Position numbers and translations under genes: made by a program
Part shown: piece after piece, positions 3,560 through 60,375 of the stretch
Numbering within the stretch: position 1 is the first letter of the stretch
Layout of the letters: the number at the start of each line of letters is the position of its first letter
Assembly: GCA_022072165.1 (NCBI GenBank)
Contig: JAJVIF010000004.1
Coordinates: forward strand, 143,667-207,666
Direction: 5' to 3'
DNA length: 64,000 nt
Origin: a bacterium
GTDB taxonomy: Bacteria; JAJVIF01
Notes under the pieces: generated by a model
What the model saw: the letters and a program-made list of their open reading frames with translations, nothing else
What the model was told of the DNA's origin: nothing
The model's database searches: none

Positions 3560-4162
3560 TTAACTCTGACGTCGGCGACGCTGATGGAAGCTGGCGAAGC
3601 CCGGCGCAGGGGACGCATCGAGGTCGGTCTCGAACTGGTGGCTCAACAGCTGGCTGTAGACCGCGACATCCCGCCCCAGCCGCGTGAGCCGCTCCAGGAT
3701 CTTCGGGTCCTCTGGCGGACCATCGGGGCGGAACTTCGCCGCTTCCACGCCGACGTGATACGGCAGGGTCCAGCCGTGGCAAAACTGCACCGTGGCGCGC
3801 ATATGGGTAAAGCAGGAGGTGCCGGGTCCGCCTCCGGTGGCACCCACCAGGGCGAAGCACTTCCCGGCGAACTCGTGGTAGTAGTGATCGAACCAGTTTT
3901 TGGTTGCGCCGGTCATGGAGCCGTGATACTCCGGACTCCCCACGACAAAGCCCTCCGCCCACAGGATGTCCGCGCGGACCGCCCGGATAGCGTCATGGCC
4001 CGAGTAGTCCTCGTGATCCGCATAGAGGGGGAGGGGGGTGACGCGCAGGTCAAGGAGGCGCGTCTCCGCGCCGGCCGCCTGCGCCGCAGCGAGGACGTAG
4101 TGCACCAGATGGGCGGTATGCGACTTGTCGCGCAGGCTGCCGATGACACCAAGAATGCGCAT
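3560..4162 (-). CDS. NADPH-dependent FMN reductase family protein
   Basis: A 200-residue flavodoxin-fold protein of the NADPH-dependent FMN reductase family (PF03358). It starts MRILGVIGSLR, the phosphate-binding loop at the first strand. The family motif GSPEYHGSMTGATKNWFDH lies near residues 95-113, followed by a glycine-rich ALVGATGGG loop. Members reduce FMN, quinones, azo compounds or metals with NAD(P)H in the cytoplasm; the substrate here cannot be read. A GAGAGGA ribosome-binding site lies about 11 bases before the ATG. The gene stands alone and is convergent with the upstream lipoprotein. The C-terminus is Arg- and Gln-rich (FHQRRRRQS). Confidence 0.85.
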   Translation of the reverse strand: MRILGVIGSLRDKSHTAHLVHYVLAAAQAAGAETRLLDLRVTPLPLYADHEDYSGHDAIRAVRADILWAEGFVVGSPEYHGSMTGATKNWFDHYYHEFAGKCFALVGATGGGPGTSCFTHMRATVQFCHGWTLPYHVGVEAAKFRPDGPPEDPKILERLTRLGRDVAVYSQLLSHQFETDLDASPAPGFASFHQRRRRQS

Positions 4163-4216
4163 GTGGGGGTGGTCCTCTCGTGCCTCACGGGATGCGCAGA
4201 GGATACCCGGTGCAGG

Positions 4217-4399
4217 CTACCAGGACCCGTCGGCGGTGGCGAGCCAGAGGGGGCTATCGGGAGCGGCGGACGCGAAGTCGGCGTCGCGCGCATAGAGGAC
4301 GAAGCAGTCCAGGCCCTGCGTCGCGATGGAAGCATAGAGCCCATCGCGAGCCTGGAAATCGCCGCCCAGTTGCGTTTCATCTGCGAGTCGCTGGGTCGG
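4217..4399 (-). pseudogene. Decayed 3' end of a secreted-protein gene
   Basis: Downstream of, and in the same frame as, the lipoprotein ending at 4457 there is an open stretch after an in-frame TGA (4400-4402). It reads like real protein: LADETQLGGDFQARDGLYAS, then LDCFVLYARDADFASAAPDS and PLWLATADGSW, ending in TAG at 4217. It has no start codon or ribosome-binding site. The likeliest reading is the tail of a neighbouring surface-protein gene, or of this gene, cut off by nonsense mutation or deletion. It could instead be chance reading. Confidence 0.35.
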
Positions 4400-20786: not shown

Positions 20787-20843
20787 ACGCCGGTCATTAA
20801 AGCACCGGACCTGCTGTGAGGTGGCAATGGCGGGGAGATGCCC

Positions 20844-20880
20844 AAAAAGCGAACCGCCCTGTCCAGTCAGGACAGGGCGG
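20844..20880 (-). terminator. Rho-independent terminator after the HicB-like gene
   Basis: A perfect 11-bp stem (CCGCCCTGTCC / GGACAGGGCGG, 20854-20880) with a 5-base loop. On the minus strand it is followed by TTCGCTTTTT. It separates the HicB-like gene from lysA. Confidence 0.75.
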
Positions 20881-20918
20881 CGATCAGCTTTCCGAAGGGG
20901 GAGCAGGCAGGGGAGTCG

Positions 20919-21155
20919 CTAGTTTGCGGAGGGCATTTTGATCGCGACGACATCCACCACCGGCTCCTGAGCAAAGTCCGGGGGGACGAGGTCGCCGGAC
21001 TGCGCGACGACCAGCTGAATGGCCTCGGCAATCCGGGCCTTCGCCTGCTCCTTCGTGGTACCGAAGGACTGAACTTCGGGGAGGGCCGGGACCGAAGCGA
21101 GATAGCCATCTTCGCAAGGCTGCAAAATGACCCGATAACTGAGGTGTGACGACAT
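20919..21155 (-). CDS. HicB-like antitoxin-fold protein (solo)
   Basis: A 78-residue protein of the HicB type (PF15919): SYRVILQPCEDGYLASVPAL, then LPEVQSFGTTKEQAKARIAE, the partial RNase H-like fold. HicB usually neutralises the HicA mRNA interferase, with a DNA-binding tail for autoregulation. Here there is no adjacent HicA and no C-terminal ribbon-helix-helix or HTH, only a short tail (VVDVVAIKMPSAN). Solo HicB-like proteins are common and their role is unclear. The start at 21155 has AAAGGA about 10 bases upstream; an earlier start would add 26 unrelated residues. Confidence 0.75.
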   Translation of the reverse strand: MSSHLSYRVILQPCEDGYLASVPALPEVQSFGTTKEQAKARIAEAIQLVVAQSGDLVPPDFAQEPVVDVVAIKMPSAN

Positions 21156-24165: not shown

Positions 24166-24190
24166 CCGACATCGCTAGCGCAACCACGTT

Positions 24191-24296
24191 CCGGCCTCCG
24201 GAATTCCGCCGGAGGCCGGGTCTTGAGACCCGGCTGGTCCAGACAACGCCGGACGCTGACTGCCAGCGCTGGCGGGTCGAGTCTAAAGACTCGACC
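24191..24296. repeat. Palindromic intergenic repeat cluster, copy 1
   Basis: Three dyads lie between convergent genes: CCGGCCTCCG / CGGAGGCCGG (24191-24219), CCGGGTCT-TG-AGACCCGG (24216-24233) and arms GGTCGAGTCT / AGACTCGACC around AA (24275-24296). The GTCT-NN-AGAC core recurs at 56.1-56.3 kb and 60.2 kb. It could also terminate both flanking transcripts. Confidence 0.7.
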
Positions 24297-24328
24297 TCCG
24301 GGGGGAGATGAAATTGCGAACTGGCTGG

Positions 24329-25156
24329 TTACAGCGTCAGGTGCGACGCCACCGAACGGACTTCATTGTGGCTCTGAGCACGGAGCAACTGCGCCAGGCT
24401 CTGCTCAACTTCCACCCGCCACTCGTCGTGGCGCTCCAGCAGGGTCTGGGCGGTCGTCAGATGGACCCGGGCTTCAGAATACTGTCCCGATTGCAATGCC
24501 AGTTCGCCGAGCGTCAGGCTGGCCAGCCCCAGGTTGTAGGCATCCTCATCCGCCGGGCTCAATTCGCGGGCCGACAGCGCTGTGGTACGGGCCTCAGTGA
24601 ACAGACGGGCTTCGTAGTGGATGCGGGCTTGCTGATTGAGTGCATAAGCCGCCATGCCCAGACGCTCGCTGTCGAGTCCCAGCTTTTCCAGTCGCTGCCA
24701 CTGGGTGAGGGAGTCTTCCGTGTCGCCGAGTTCTGCCGATGCCTCAGCGGCGTACTGACAGGCCGCTGCTTGCGCCAGCAAAAAATCGGAGCGAATGGCA
24801 TGGAGATAGGCCTGATGAAAGGTGTCCCGGGCCTGCTCAAAGTCCCGCAATTCGACATGACAATTGCCCAGCGAAAGGAGCGTCTGTGCGATGGATCGTT
24901 CGTCCTGTGCCAGCCGCTCCAGGTCCAGCGCCCGACGGAAGTGGACCATGGCACCCCGGCTGTCACCCTTCATCTGGTGGGCGAGCCCCAGGTTGTGATG
25001 CATGATCCCCTCGCCCTTGGGATCCCCCAACTGCTGCATCGCTCCGAGGCACGAGTGGAAGAGGTTGATCGCCAGGTCATGCCAGCCCTGTGCTGCGGAC
25101 CACTGGGCGAGTCGCTGCAGCAGACAGACCTGGAGGCAATGTAGCAGGCGGGGCAT
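24329..25156 (-). CDS. TPR repeat protein
   Basis: A 275-residue, almost wholly helical protein made of TPR units of about 34-40 residues (IMHHNLGLAHQMKGDSRGAM, AQTLLSLGNCHVELRDFEQA, ALNQQARIHYEARLFTEART). It has no signal peptide or membrane segment and no catalytic motif, so a cytoplasmic protein-binding role is inferred. It is the last gene of a three-gene minus-strand set, 56 bases after the previous stop. TATATT lies 9 bases before its ATG, so it may also have its own start site. Confidence 0.7.
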   Translation of the reverse strand: MPRLLHCLQVCLLQRLAQWSAAQGWHDLAINLFHSCLGAMQQLGDPKGEGIMHHNLGLAHQMKGDSRGAMVHFRRALDLERLAQDERSIAQTLLSLGNCHVELRDFEQARDTFHQAYLHAIRSDFLLAQAAACQYAAEASAELGDTEDSLTQWQRLEKLGLDSERLGMAAYALNQQARIHYEARLFTEARTTALSARELSPADEDAYNLGLASLTLGELALQSGQYSEARVHLTTAQTLLERHDEWRVEVEQSLAQLLRAQSHNEVRSVASHLTL

Positions 25157-28471: not shown

Positions 28472-28496
28472 GGGCATGGCCGATGCGGCCATGCCC
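28472..28496 (-). terminator. Hairpin after surE-wecB
   Basis: A perfect 10-bp stem (GGGCATGGCC / GGCCATGCCC) with the 5-base loop GATGC, in the ~265-base gap between wecB and the TPR operon. TGTTCGTTTC follows on the minus strand. Short ORFs in the gap (28497-28663) do not look coding in any frame. Confidence 0.5.
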
Positions 28497-33577: not shown

Positions 33578-34627
33578 ATGACGTACTGTCTGTCCCCCCG
33601 AAAGCGCGGCTTTACACTGGTCGAGATGATCGTCGTCTTCTCGGTGCTGGCGGTAATCGCGGTGATCGCGGCCAAAACCTACTCCAGCGTCTACAACCGG
33701 GGCAAGCTCGCCCGGGTGGAGGCGGGCATCGGCGAGATCGATGCCGCGCTGCAGCGCTTCAAGATGGCGAATGGGGGGTACTACCCTGGCCTGTCGCCCT
33801 GGCCGATTACTTCGACCGGGGGCTCGGTCGCCGCCTACCCGCGGGACCAGTACTTCGCCGGTCCCCGGGTGATCGGTGGGTCCGCTGGATTTGCTGATGA
33901 CCCGACGGCGGTCGCGCAGGACGACTACCTGTACGACAAGAAGAATCCCCAGAGCCCGTTCGTGAACGCCGCGTTCACGGCTTCTTACCCTCTGTATCTC
34001 TCGAACATCACCCGTCCGAACAGCCCGATGAAGCCGGTGGACTCGCTGGTGGCGGGGGGCTTCTTCAACGAGAACAAGTACCCCAACAACCCGTACCGGC
34101 CAGGTTCCAGCATGGTGAACGTGGCGTTCATGCTGGGGTCGTACCGCAAAAGCACCAATGCGTTCTCGCTGGTCGCGCTGCCGAACGTCAGTGGGTACAA
34201 CCCGAGGGGACTGACGATCGGTCGTCCCGAAGCCGATCCGGTCTCTGGGCAGCTCAACAGCTTCTATCGGTACTCGCTCCAGGCGACACACTGGAGCCTG
34301 ACCAGCCTGCCGCCGGGAGTTCGGGTCGAGGATGTCTATCCGGAAGGGGACTTCGCTTACATTCCCCTGGGGCGCAAGGACCCGAAAGCGCAATTAGTGC
34401 CCGATTATTGGCTAATTGGCTACGGGAGCATTGAGACCCGGAGCGGGAGCCCGTACAATGAGTGGCTACAGGAGAACCCCACACTCCCGGATTTCCCACC
34501 GCCCATGGGTGACGGTAATCCGAACAGTTTGACCGGGTTCGAGCGTACGGTCCGATCCTTGCTCTACGGGGCACTGACGGTCCGGGGGAGTAAGTACGTG
34601 GATCAGCTGAACTCTGTCCGGCAGTAG
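33578..34627 (+). CDS. Large type II/IV pseudopilin
   Basis: A 349-residue prepilin-like protein. The leader MTYCLSPRKRG precedes FTLVEMIVVFSVLAVIAVIA, with the conserved Glu at +5. A GspG-like helix follows (KLARVEAGIGEIDAALQRFK, MANGGYYPG), then a ~250-residue Tyr/Asn/Pro-rich domain. It parallels the protein at 30843-31907 in plan (size, ANGGYYP versus NEQYP) but is diverged, so the pair are probably paralogues. The ATG at 33578 is chosen for the proper short leader, with GGAG 8 bases upstream. An upstream start at 33395 would overlap the promoter. Confidence 0.88.
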   Translation: MTYCLSPRKRGFTLVEMIVVFSVLAVIAVIAAKTYSSVYNRGKLARVEAGIGEIDAALQRFKMANGGYYPGLSPWPITSTGGSVAAYPRDQYFAGPRVIGGSAGFADDPTAVAQDDYLYDKKNPQSPFVNAAFTASYPLYLSNITRPNSPMKPVDSLVAGGFFNENKYPNNPYRPGSSMVNVAFMLGSYRKSTNAFSLVALPNVSGYNPRGLTIGRPEADPVSGQLNSFYRYSLQATHWSLTSLPPGVRVEDVYPEGDFAYIPLGRKDPKAQLVPDYWLIGYGSIETRSGSPYNEWLQENPTLPDFPPPMGDGNPNSLTGFERTVRSLLYGALTVRGSKYVDQLNSVRQ

Positions 34628-34654
34628 GCAGTCCCAGCAGATACGCGGTATACT
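34625..34654 (+). promoter_or_regulatory. Probable promoter of the structured RNA
   Basis: -10 TATACT (34649-34654) with TAGGCA (34625-34630, four of six consensus) 18 bases upstream, overlapping the end of the pseudopilin gene. It predicts a start near 34661. Confidence 0.5.
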
Positions 34655-34660
34655 TACCGG

Positions 34661-34874
34661 AGGATAGACAGACAGGGCAGGTGGTCCCAGAGCCGTCAAG
34701 AGTACAGCGACGACAAGGGGCCTGCCGGCTGGGTACGGAGTTCACCGCCTGTTTCGAACTCCATACCAGGCTGCGGAAGCCAACGGTCAGCGGACCTCTG
34801 CCCCATTCATCCTCTTTATCGCCTCTTTTCATCTTATGATACCCTGGCCCCAAGCCGGGGTATCATTCCTTTTA
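34661..34874 (+). ncRNA. Candidate structured small RNA, 6S-like rod
   Basis: A non-coding stretch with its own -10 and terminator, about 210 nt. The closing stem pairs GGGCAG (34675-34680) with CTGCCC (34798-34803) and GGTCC (34683-34687) with GGACC (34792-34796). Next come a small internal loop and GCCGT / ACGGT. An apical hairpin pairs GTA-C-GGAGTTC (34733-34742) with GAACTCC-A-TAC (34756-34766). Between them lies a purine-rich unpaired stretch (34699-34719). A long rod with a central bubble is the shape of 6S RNA, but no sequence signature proves that family. A leader of the transglutaminase gene is the main alternative. Confidence 0.5.
34836..34874 (+). terminator. Rho-independent terminator
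   Basis: A perfect 9-bp stem, ATGATACCC (34836-34844) / GGGTATCAT (34858-34866), with an inner GGC/GCC, followed by TCCTTTTAT. It ends the candidate small RNA and lies before the ribosome-binding site of the next gene. Confidence 0.75.
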
Positions 34875-34907
34875 TGCGGGGCTGCACGCCCCTGGAGGAT
34901 CCCCGGT

Positions 34908-36434
34908 ATGCGCAGAGGGAGCAGTCTGTGGATGCAGCGATTTTTGGGCTGTATGAGCCTGATCGGGTGCTTGTTCGCCACTGGGATTCCAGGACATGCG
35001 TCCGCCTCCATCGATGAGCAGCACTGGTACGGCGCGTATATGCAGGGGACCAAGATCGGCTTTGCGGTCATGGGCAAGCGTGCCACGACGTTTGCTGGTG
35101 TCCCGGCGGTGGAGTCGTTCATGGACACCACCCTGGAGATCAGTCTCCTGGGAGCGAAGCAACAGCTGACAATTCAGGAACGGGACTATGTTGATCCCGA
35201 CACGCGTGGCTTCCTGGGCGCTGAGGTCTTCATGCAGACCGGCTTGCCGGGAATGGACCAGCACACCCGAATGCGCCGGGAAGGCAACGAAGTCGTAATC
35301 GAGCTGTTAAGCGGTGAGGTGGTGACCTCCAGCGAACGCCGGCCGTGGGAAGCGGGAGCCATCAGCGCACAGGAAGCGGCGTTCCAGATCGCGGAGCAGC
35401 TCGACCCGGCGACCGGCGGCGAGTTCAGCTTTCTGATCTTCAGCGCCGCGACCCAGTCGGCGACCCAGTCGACGATGACCTACAGCCCGGCACGGATGGT
35501 CTACCACGAGGGGGTCGAGATCCAGGTGTATGAAGTCACGAGTCGGCTGCCCGCGATGGGGATGACTTCCACGGCCACAGAGACGGTTGATGGGGTCGTG
35601 CTTAAAACGACGATGCTCAGTGGTCTGTTTGAGCTGCGACTGGAAGATGAAACACTGGCGCAGAGCCCAACGGGCACGCCGGATATGCTGGCGATGTCAC
35701 GAGTGGAGACCACGGGAGAACGCCTCCCCCGGCAGCCGGTGAGGCACCTGGAACTGCGACCGGTCATCGACGACCCGGTGGAGCAGCTCTTTCCGGAAAC
35801 GGGACGCCAGCGGCTGCAGCAGTCACTGGAGGGTCCGGTGCTGGTGATCGACATGCTTGGGGTCGGGCAGGGGCCGCAGGTGTCACTGACACTGGAGGAG
35901 CGGGAGCGCTGGACCGGCAGGTCGCTGCATGTACAGAGCGATGACCCTCGCATCGTGGAACTTGCCCGTCACATCACCGGGCATCTGTCACCCGATGATG
36001 ATGCCGGTCGGGCCTTCGCCATCACGCGGTATGTCTTCGAGACGCTGAAAAAGGAAATGGTTCCGACGACCCCCAATGCCCTGCAGGTCCTCGAGATGGG
36101 GAAGGGCGACTGCGGCGAACACGCGGTGCTGACGGTCGCGTTGCTGCGGGCAGCGGGGCTGCCGGCGAAGACGCTGTACGGGCTGGTGTACACGCCGCTT
36201 TATGGCCAGGGGTTCTTCTATCACGCCTGGAACGCGGTCCTGGTGGACGACCGCTGGCTGGAGGTCGACAGCGCGCTGGGGATGTTCCCGGCGGACGCGA
36301 CACATGTCGTGGTGGGGGAGGCGGATGATCTGGCGACTGCCACGGCCATCATGCCTCTGTATGGGCGCCTGGCTTTCGACATCCAGCGGGCCCTGGGCGG
36401 GAGCTTCCCGGCGGAGTACCGGCTGACCCCGTAA
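34908..36434 (+). CDS. Exported transglutaminase-like protein
   Basis: A 508-residue protein with a signal peptide ending GIPGHASA. Residues ~35-330 are a long beta-rich N-terminal region. The C-terminal transglutaminase-like domain (PF01841) has the full triad: Cys in GKGDCGEHA (near 401), His in FYHAWNAVLV (near 438) and Asp in LEVDSALG (near 454). Such domains act as cysteine proteases, amidases or cross-linkers outside the cytoplasm. The ATG at 34908 has GGAGGAT eight bases upstream; an upstream ATG at 34836 lies inside the terminator hairpin and is rejected. The 36-residue DUF-type tail is unremarkable. Confidence 0.88.
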   Translation: MRRGSSLWMQRFLGCMSLIGCLFATGIPGHASASIDEQHWYGAYMQGTKIGFAVMGKRATTFAGVPAVESFMDTTLEISLLGAKQQLTIQERDYVDPDTRGFLGAEVFMQTGLPGMDQHTRMRREGNEVVIELLSGEVVTSSERRPWEAGAISAQEAAFQIAEQLDPATGGEFSFLIFSAATQSATQSTMTYSPARMVYHEGVEIQVYEVTSRLPAMGMTSTATETVDGVVLKTTMLSGLFELRLEDETLAQSPTGTPDMLAMSRVETTGERLPRQPVRHLELRPVIDDPVEQLFPETGRQRLQQSLEGPVLVIDMLGVGQGPQVSLTLEERERWTGRSLHVQSDDPRIVELARHITGHLSPDDDAGRAFAITRYVFETLKKEMVPTTPNALQVLEMGKGDCGEHAVLTVALLRAAGLPAKTLYGLVYTPLYGQGFFYHAWNAVLVDDRWLEVDSALGMFPADATHVVVGEADDLATATAIMPLYGRLAFDIQRALGGSFPAEYRLTP

Positions 36435-59934: not shown

Positions 59935-60375
59935 CGTGAAGAGCCCCCGGTCGCTGCGCGACCACCCCCGCAAGCGGGGGGGGACCCACATCATCGATGC
60001 GACTGCGAGTGCGCCTGCGCCGGATTAGTAGACCCCCTCCCCAGCCCTCCCCCGGACCAAGGTCCAGGGGAGGGAGCCAGAGGGTGAGCGACCGACGCAA
60101 AGTGCCGCTGACTGCTCCCCCCCACCCGACCTTGGTCGGGGGGAGGGACAGGGACCAGTGGCCCAAGCGCCGGAGCCCAGGCCCTTACCGGAACCCCGGA
60201 CCGCTATCCGGAGCCCGGGTCTTTAGACCCGGGACGTGATGTGGTGCCAGTACGGGTGAACGCGCTTCCGTGTAGGGGACACAAGTCCCCCGAAAGCAGG
60301 TGAGTTACTACGTCCCGACAGCGATTTCGCGTCCCAGGTCTAAAGTCCAGAGCTCCGACTGCAGCGCTGGCGTCG
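59935..60375. repeat. Palindromic intergenic repeat cluster, copy 3
   Basis: This fills most of the 730-base gap between divergent nuoA and nuoJ. Elements are a CCCCCGCAAGCGGGGG-type hairpin near 59966, CCCTCCCC-C-GGACC-AA-GGTCC-A-GGGGAGGG near 60050-60078, CCCGACC-TT-GGTCGGG near 60125-60142, CCCGGGTCTTTAGACCCGGG (60214-60233) with the GACGTGATGTGGT tail, and a degenerate CCAGGTCTAAAG at 60334. The parallels to copy 2 are close. The remaining ~150 bases before nuoJ (60376-60529) show nothing clear. Confidence 0.8.

Follow-up and report, generated by a model that had tools for sequence, protein, structure and literature searches.

The question raised by this locus was whether the intergenic interval between a pseudopilin-like gene and a transglutaminase-like gene of an uncultured bacterium contains a small RNA gene of its own and, if so, whether that RNA is a form of 6S RNA. 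The interval lies in a window of 64,000 nucleotides, which is the whole stretch of DNA analyzed, and covers positions 34628-34907, or 280 bases, provided that 34908 is the start of the next gene; that start was our choice, and a codon-usage gene model favored 34932. An earlier note on this DNA had proposed a structured small RNA with its own promoter and terminator and had remarked on its 6S-like shape. All of the elements it named (the -10 box, the closing, inner, and apical stems, and the terminator) were found in the sequence where it had placed them, and they are listed with the neighboring features in Table 1. The 5' end of the proposed transcript was set 7 nt past the -10 box.

Table 1. 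Predicted elements of the interval and the genes on either side of it
Feature	Position	Strand	Basis and remarks
Upstream gene, pseudopilin-like protein with N-terminal methylation motif	33578-34627	+	Pfam N_methyl, 8.1e-08; full-length orthologs in 3 class relatives
Weak -35-like hexamer TAGGCA	34625-34630	+	Consensus scan; 18 nt before the -10 box, overlaps the pilin stop codon
-10 box TATACT	34649-34654	+	Consensus scan; hexamer enrichment upstream of genes
Proposed small non-coding transcript	34661-34875	+	Inferred from promoter and terminator positions
Rod-like fold: AGGAU/ATCCT ends, closing stems, asymmetric bubble, apical stem	34661-34813	+	-59.6 kcal/mol, z -1.85; weak
Closing stems, 5' arm: GGGCAG 34675-34680, GGTCC 34683-34687	34675-34687	+	Pair probability about 0.99
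Inner stem GCCGT/ACGGT, uncertain	34692-34696 / 34783-34787	+	Pair probability 0.38-0.62
Apical hairpin GGTACGGAGTTC / GAACTCCATACC, 12-nt loop	34728-34771	+	Shuffles; high pair probabilities
Apical stem core GGAGTTC / GAACTCC	34737-34743 / 34756-34762	+	Named by the earlier note; present
Closing stems, 3' arm: GGACC 34792-34796, CTGCCC 34798-34803	34792-34803	+	Pair probability about 0.99
CU-rich linker, predicted single-stranded; proposed pairing seed	34814-34835	+	95% unpaired in the RNA as drawn; rare pyrimidine tract
Intrinsic terminator, 13-pair stem, 5-nt loop, tail TCCTTTTAT	34836-34875 (hairpin 34836-34866)	+	Scan; shuffles; spacing
Shine-Dalgarno site GGAGG of the downstream gene	34894-34898	+	Seen in the sequence
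Downstream gene, exported transglutaminase-like protein	34908-36434	+	Pfam Transglut_core, 1.7e-18

A 52-codon open reading frame with a GTG start (34681-34839) was passed over as coding by the gene model, and a small-protein reading of the interval was rejected. So was its reading as a palindromic operator or repeat; the terminator and apical palindromes are single in the window, and BLAST found the locus in single copy in its own genome. ARAGORN found no tRNA or tmRNA in the window, and plasmid records gave no match to the locus. By prediction, the interval has the generic features of an intergenic sRNA gene, namely its own promoter, an intrinsic terminator, and no coding capacity.

Promoter and terminator

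Promoter usage was examined in contig C4 of the same genome, for which the codon-usage model gave 171 genes and hexamers were counted in 115 upstream regions. The most enriched hexamer upstream of genes was TATACT, found in 10 of the 115 regions compared with 1.0 expected, followed by TACAAT (9 upstream regions, 1.1 expected). The TATACT of the locus, at a distance of 253 nt from the start codon (34908), is outside the ten regions counted. The sequence GGTATACT occurs twice in the window, compared with 0.19 expected (one shuffle in 100 has two); one site is upstream of the candidate locus and the other is upstream of the pilin gene, 16 nt after TTGCAT. As at the locus, several of the ten TATACT sites in contig C4 have no -35 that is obvious by eye. 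These genome-specific hexamer statistics support the proposal that the locus has a promoter of its own.

The terminator hairpin has a predicted stability of -21.8 kcal/mol, which none of 1000 shuffles equaled. To place it among the terminators of the genome, we used a scan of contig C4 that gave 29 intergenic rows representing 26 distinct sites, 21 of them with a same-strand gene upstream. Seventeen of these 21 stand 23-51 nt past the stop codon of that gene. The terminator of the locus stands 209 nt past the pilin stop codon, and the remaining outliers are at 168, 412, and 446 nt; thus, its position is not that of an ordinary gene-end terminator in this genome. Six terminators far from any upstream gene end were checked for four -10 hexamers (TATACT, TACAAT, TATAAT, and TATCCT) on the same strand. 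Only that of the locus has one within 420 nt upstream, the TATACT at a distance of 182 nt. The terminator proposed for the RNA is supported by its stability and its atypical spacing. Taken together, the TATACT enrichment, the strength of the terminator, and its spacing argue for a separate transcription unit from about 34661 to 34875.

The same terminator could instead be that of the pilin mRNA, in which case the preceding 200 nt would be untranslated filler and the TATACT a chance match. Because the orthologous pilin genes of two relatives (G001 and G003) end in a plain terminator, the pilin gene of this genome should have one as well, and none besides this one was found between 34627 and 34836. 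The statistics of the rod, which are near background (see below), also fit an ordinary 3' end. The spacing just described does not, and neither do a -10 box that looks functional in this genome or the rare pyrimidine tract in the linker. We consider an ordinary pilin 3' end quite unlikely.

Two other terminators in the window, both on the minus strand, are unusually placed. The hairpin at 28472-28496 lies 168 nt past a minus-strand gene end, an unusual spacing like that of the locus, and has none of the four tested -10 hexamers upstream. Upstream of the terminator at 20853-20881 there are 855 nt free of minus-strand genes, an sRNA-like arrangement.

Predicted fold

The predicted stability of the apical hairpin was equaled by 8 of 1000 shuffles, and its core, GGAGTTC..GAACTCC, is found a single time in the window and was absent from all of 100 shuffles. 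Folding of the whole interval from 34649 to 34880, terminator included, gave a z of -2.84. The z of the rod alone (Table 1) was reached by 11% of 900 sampled intergenic windows, and 88 of 1066 windows tiled across both strands had a z of -2 or lower. When the flanks were shuffled and the apical hairpin was kept, 124 of 1000 sequences folded equally well, and 12 of 1000 reached the same number of cross-pairs. The inner GCCGT/ACGGT stem competes with a local hairpin. Thus, of the structured RNA described in the earlier note, the apical hairpin and the terminator exceed chance but the long rod does not clearly do so; the rod is a possible structure, not a demonstrated one. The reverse complement of the rod folds better than the rod itself (z -3.7), but an RNA from the opposite strand was rejected since no promoter or terminator was found on that strand in 34400-35000.

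Very stable intergenic folds, far above that of the candidate locus, were seen elsewhere in the window. On both strands of 60040-60370 (C4:203706 and C4:203886) z was -5.3, with -7.95 on the minus strand. The windows at about 20787-20940 and 24166-24390 each gave a z of -6.3 (-5.1 at 24241), and the former overlaps the minus-strand terminator at 20853-20881.

The folds also bear on the main rival explanation, in which the transglutaminase gene has this RNA as its 5' untranslated leader and a signal would determine read-through of the terminator. The order of elements is that of attenuator leaders and riboswitches: promoter, folded domain, terminator, ribosome-binding site, and gene. The terminator ends 33 nt before the start codon, and the linker sequence AUCCUC is able to cover the ribosome-binding site, GGAGGAU, as well. 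A consensus scan of the plus strand from 34655 to 35000 found no promoter-like site, which favors a leader, as does the prediction that the Shine-Dalgarno site is only about 13-15% unpaired in read-through transcripts. In a separate fold of 34806-34935, the linker and the Shine-Dalgarno site pair with each other and enclose the terminator. In contrast, when the RNA is folded as far as the terminator loop, the rod persists and only 4 linker bases pair locally, so that these single-sequence folds offer no convincing antiterminator; nor did Rfam give a riboswitch or T-box match. The closeness of the terminator to the next gene is not diagnostic of a leader, because several ordinary terminators of contig C4 located right after genes also lie 34-60 nt before the next same-strand gene. 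A scan of the genome contigs found no relatives of the transglutaminase-like gene, and hence no close relative in which a conserved leader could be sought. On balance, a leader is rather unlikely.

Known RNA families and relatives

A canonical 6S RNA has a closing stem, a large central bubble, and an apical stem (PMC8414754, in the available part of the text). The candidate resembles 6S RNA (RF00013) in its predicted rod with an asymmetric bubble and in having its own promoter and terminator; the 6S-like shape carries a z of only -1.85. A covariance search had been suggested for 6S RNA, SRP RNA, T-box, and tmRNA, and none of these matched the locus. Across the whole window no Rfam family, RF00013 included, reached its cut-off. 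With E up to 10 and 321 bases around the locus, there was again no RF00013 match, and the only matches, all at chance level, were to eukaryotic microRNA models and to one Brucella sRNA model. Weak matches to mir-276 and mir-490 were rejected, as these are animal families and the scores were far below the cut-off. The best chance match to RF00013 in the genome was elsewhere (11.9 bits). SRP RNA (RF00169) and RNase P RNA (RF00010) were likewise rejected as identities of the locus; the former gave no match there, and the genome has its copies at C1:406349-406447 and C1:161979-162348, respectively. No Rfam match to tmRNA, T-box, or known riboswitches was found at the locus.

Two covariance models, each built from a single sequence, were used for comparison in both directions. 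R1 was built from the candidate locus, and R2, a control for the power of such models, was built from the 6S RNA of an unrelated genome. R2 recognized 27 of 31 6S loci, including itself and E. coli ssrS; this control set consists of E. coli and the 30 best Rfam scorers from the 108 genomes with a match, and so overstates the power for very divergent 6S RNAs. At 34000-36000, R2 found no match. Of the 31 6S RNAs, R1 recovered none; its sole match (6.7 bits, in L042) is outside the 6S gene. Segments that recur in 6S RNAs were read from printouts in which several minus-strand loci were reverse-complemented and the locus L062 was cut at the wrong place; the pairs GUGNGCAUGCC...GGAAGCCUGAA and CCCACCUG...CAGGUUCAA are missing from the locus in that arrangement. 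The bubble begins with CCCAGAGCCG, whose likeness to CCCTGAGCCG of E. coli 6S RNA is genuine although short; TTGAGCC of other 6S RNAs is similar to it as well.

We conclude that the locus is not a member of the 6S family, and the 6S-like reading of the earlier note is set aside. Calling an RNA 6S takes more than a rod with a bubble: a 6S model built from one sequence readily recognizes loci in other phyla, and the locus fails in both directions. A divergent 6S RNA that would bind RNA polymerase could still be argued from the shape, from the likeness of CCCAGAGCCG, and from the phylum itself, in which none of the four genomes (G000-G003) has an RF00013 match above the cut-off, compared with 108 genomes that match at E up to 0.01 in a broad set of 193. 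Set against the model comparisons, the missing segments, and the lack of conservation of the locus in its class, these points leave such an RNA barely credible. An unrelated or unrecognizably diverged RNA might also have taken over RNA polymerase binding in this lineage, as Ms1 RNA did in Actinobacteria. Ms1 is a structured RNA proposed where 6S goes unrecognized (PMC9130861, available part), and this phylum lacks a recognizable 6S RNA in 4 of 4 genomes. The genes flanking the candidate differ from the HAD hydrolase and others that the available part of PMC9130861 reports for Ms1, and beyond the flanks the two were compared through Rfam only. We regard an Ms1-like role as very improbable.

Below the level of domain, three relatives were available (G001-G003), all from other families of the same class. 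Neither R1 nor BLAST found anything convincing in them, and blastn of the locus against 59 genomes gave short matches only. In these 59 genomes R1 had two matches besides itself, one in G054 (L038; 22.4 bits, E 0.015 per genome), with a 253-aa reading frame overlapping it on the opposite strand, and one in G026 (13.5 bits); a further weak match was in the genome of the candidate (15.0 bits, L081). After the alignments were viewed, all three were judged to be chance and rejected as homologs. The pilin gene, for its part, has full-length orthologs in all three class relatives. A plain terminator lies within about 70 nt downstream of the ortholog in G001 and G003, and in G002 a different sequence with hairpins follows it. 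A search of the genome contigs with the pilin alignment gave 4 loci, including a fourth relative (L088) in which another reading frame lies 3' of the ortholog and a terminator is absent within 400 nt. R1 found no rod at the syntenic pilin loci of the relatives. The interval probably encodes a small RNA, which to date is known from this genome alone.

Two further observations were made during these searches. The genome of the candidate (G000) has about 20 pseudopilin-like matches, of which several lie together as pairs or triplets. In G003, the sequence 3' of the pilin terminator (L087, about 4130-4260) looks like what we take to be the start of a group II intron.

The CU-rich linker and a proposed small RNA

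The linker between rod and terminator is unusual in composition. A 30-nt window in it contains 4 purines, a pyrimidine content matched by just 6 of 81616 intergenic windows of that length, 2 of them at this locus; among 118 strand-regions at least 200 nt long, 2 have such a tract. Against the 171 translation starts, the linker paired better than all of 100 shuffled linkers. It also paired unusually well with mid-gene stretches, and the difference was not significant (-0.88 vs. -0.68, sd 0.37); specificity for translation starts is thus not supported. Hfq was not detected in any of the four genomes of the phylum (G000-G003), so the usual chaperone is missing.

In layout, the candidate is like the LhrC-type sRNAs of Listeria, which have a hairpin, a single-stranded CU-rich stretch, and a terminator; the comparisons that follow draw on the available part of PMC4132741. 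The CU-rich stretches of LhrC pair with ribosome-binding sites, to which the CU-rich motif of the candidate is likewise complementary, and Hfq is reported there to be unnecessary for the effect on lapB. The single-stranded stretch of LhrC4 is the weakest of its three sites. Unlike LhrC, the candidate is in single copy by BLAST and has one CU-rich stretch and none in loops.

The best explanation of the locus, in our view, is that this lineage has a free-standing gene for a small non-coding RNA, which would act by pairing of its linker; we hold it tentatively, at somewhat less than even confidence. The promoter type, the terminator, the unusual pyrimidine tract, and the absence of the known families tested were computed here. 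Support comes from the TATACT enrichment, the strength and spacing of the terminator, the lone -10 hexamer among six far terminators, a reading frame that the gene model passed over, and a rare linker predicted to be unpaired. Against it stand the lack of a homolog from which covariation could be read, a rod barely above shuffles, the better fold of the other strand, a poor -35 hexamer, linker pairing not shown to be specific for translation starts, and the missing Hfq.

From these features we infer transcription of the locus, its separateness from its neighbors, and the whole of the pairing mechanism. RNA polymerase would start at about 34661 from a housekeeping-type promoter with a TATACT box and would stop at 34836-34875, the intrinsic terminator, so that the RNA would be ~215 nt long. 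In this RNA the 5' end would be paired into the rod, followed by the stable apical hairpin within it, the single-stranded CU-rich linker, and the terminator hairpin. Most probably the linker, AUCCUCUUUAUCGCCUCUUUUCAUCUU, would then base-pair with G/A-rich ribosome-binding sites and so reduce translation of target mRNAs without Hfq.

The locus is therefore a credible but unremarkable orphan sRNA candidate of putative function and not a 6S RNA. We know of no sRNA biology in this candidate phylum. For the phylum, represented here by four genomes without an Hfq match, the locus provides one sRNA candidate supported by a promoter and a terminator.
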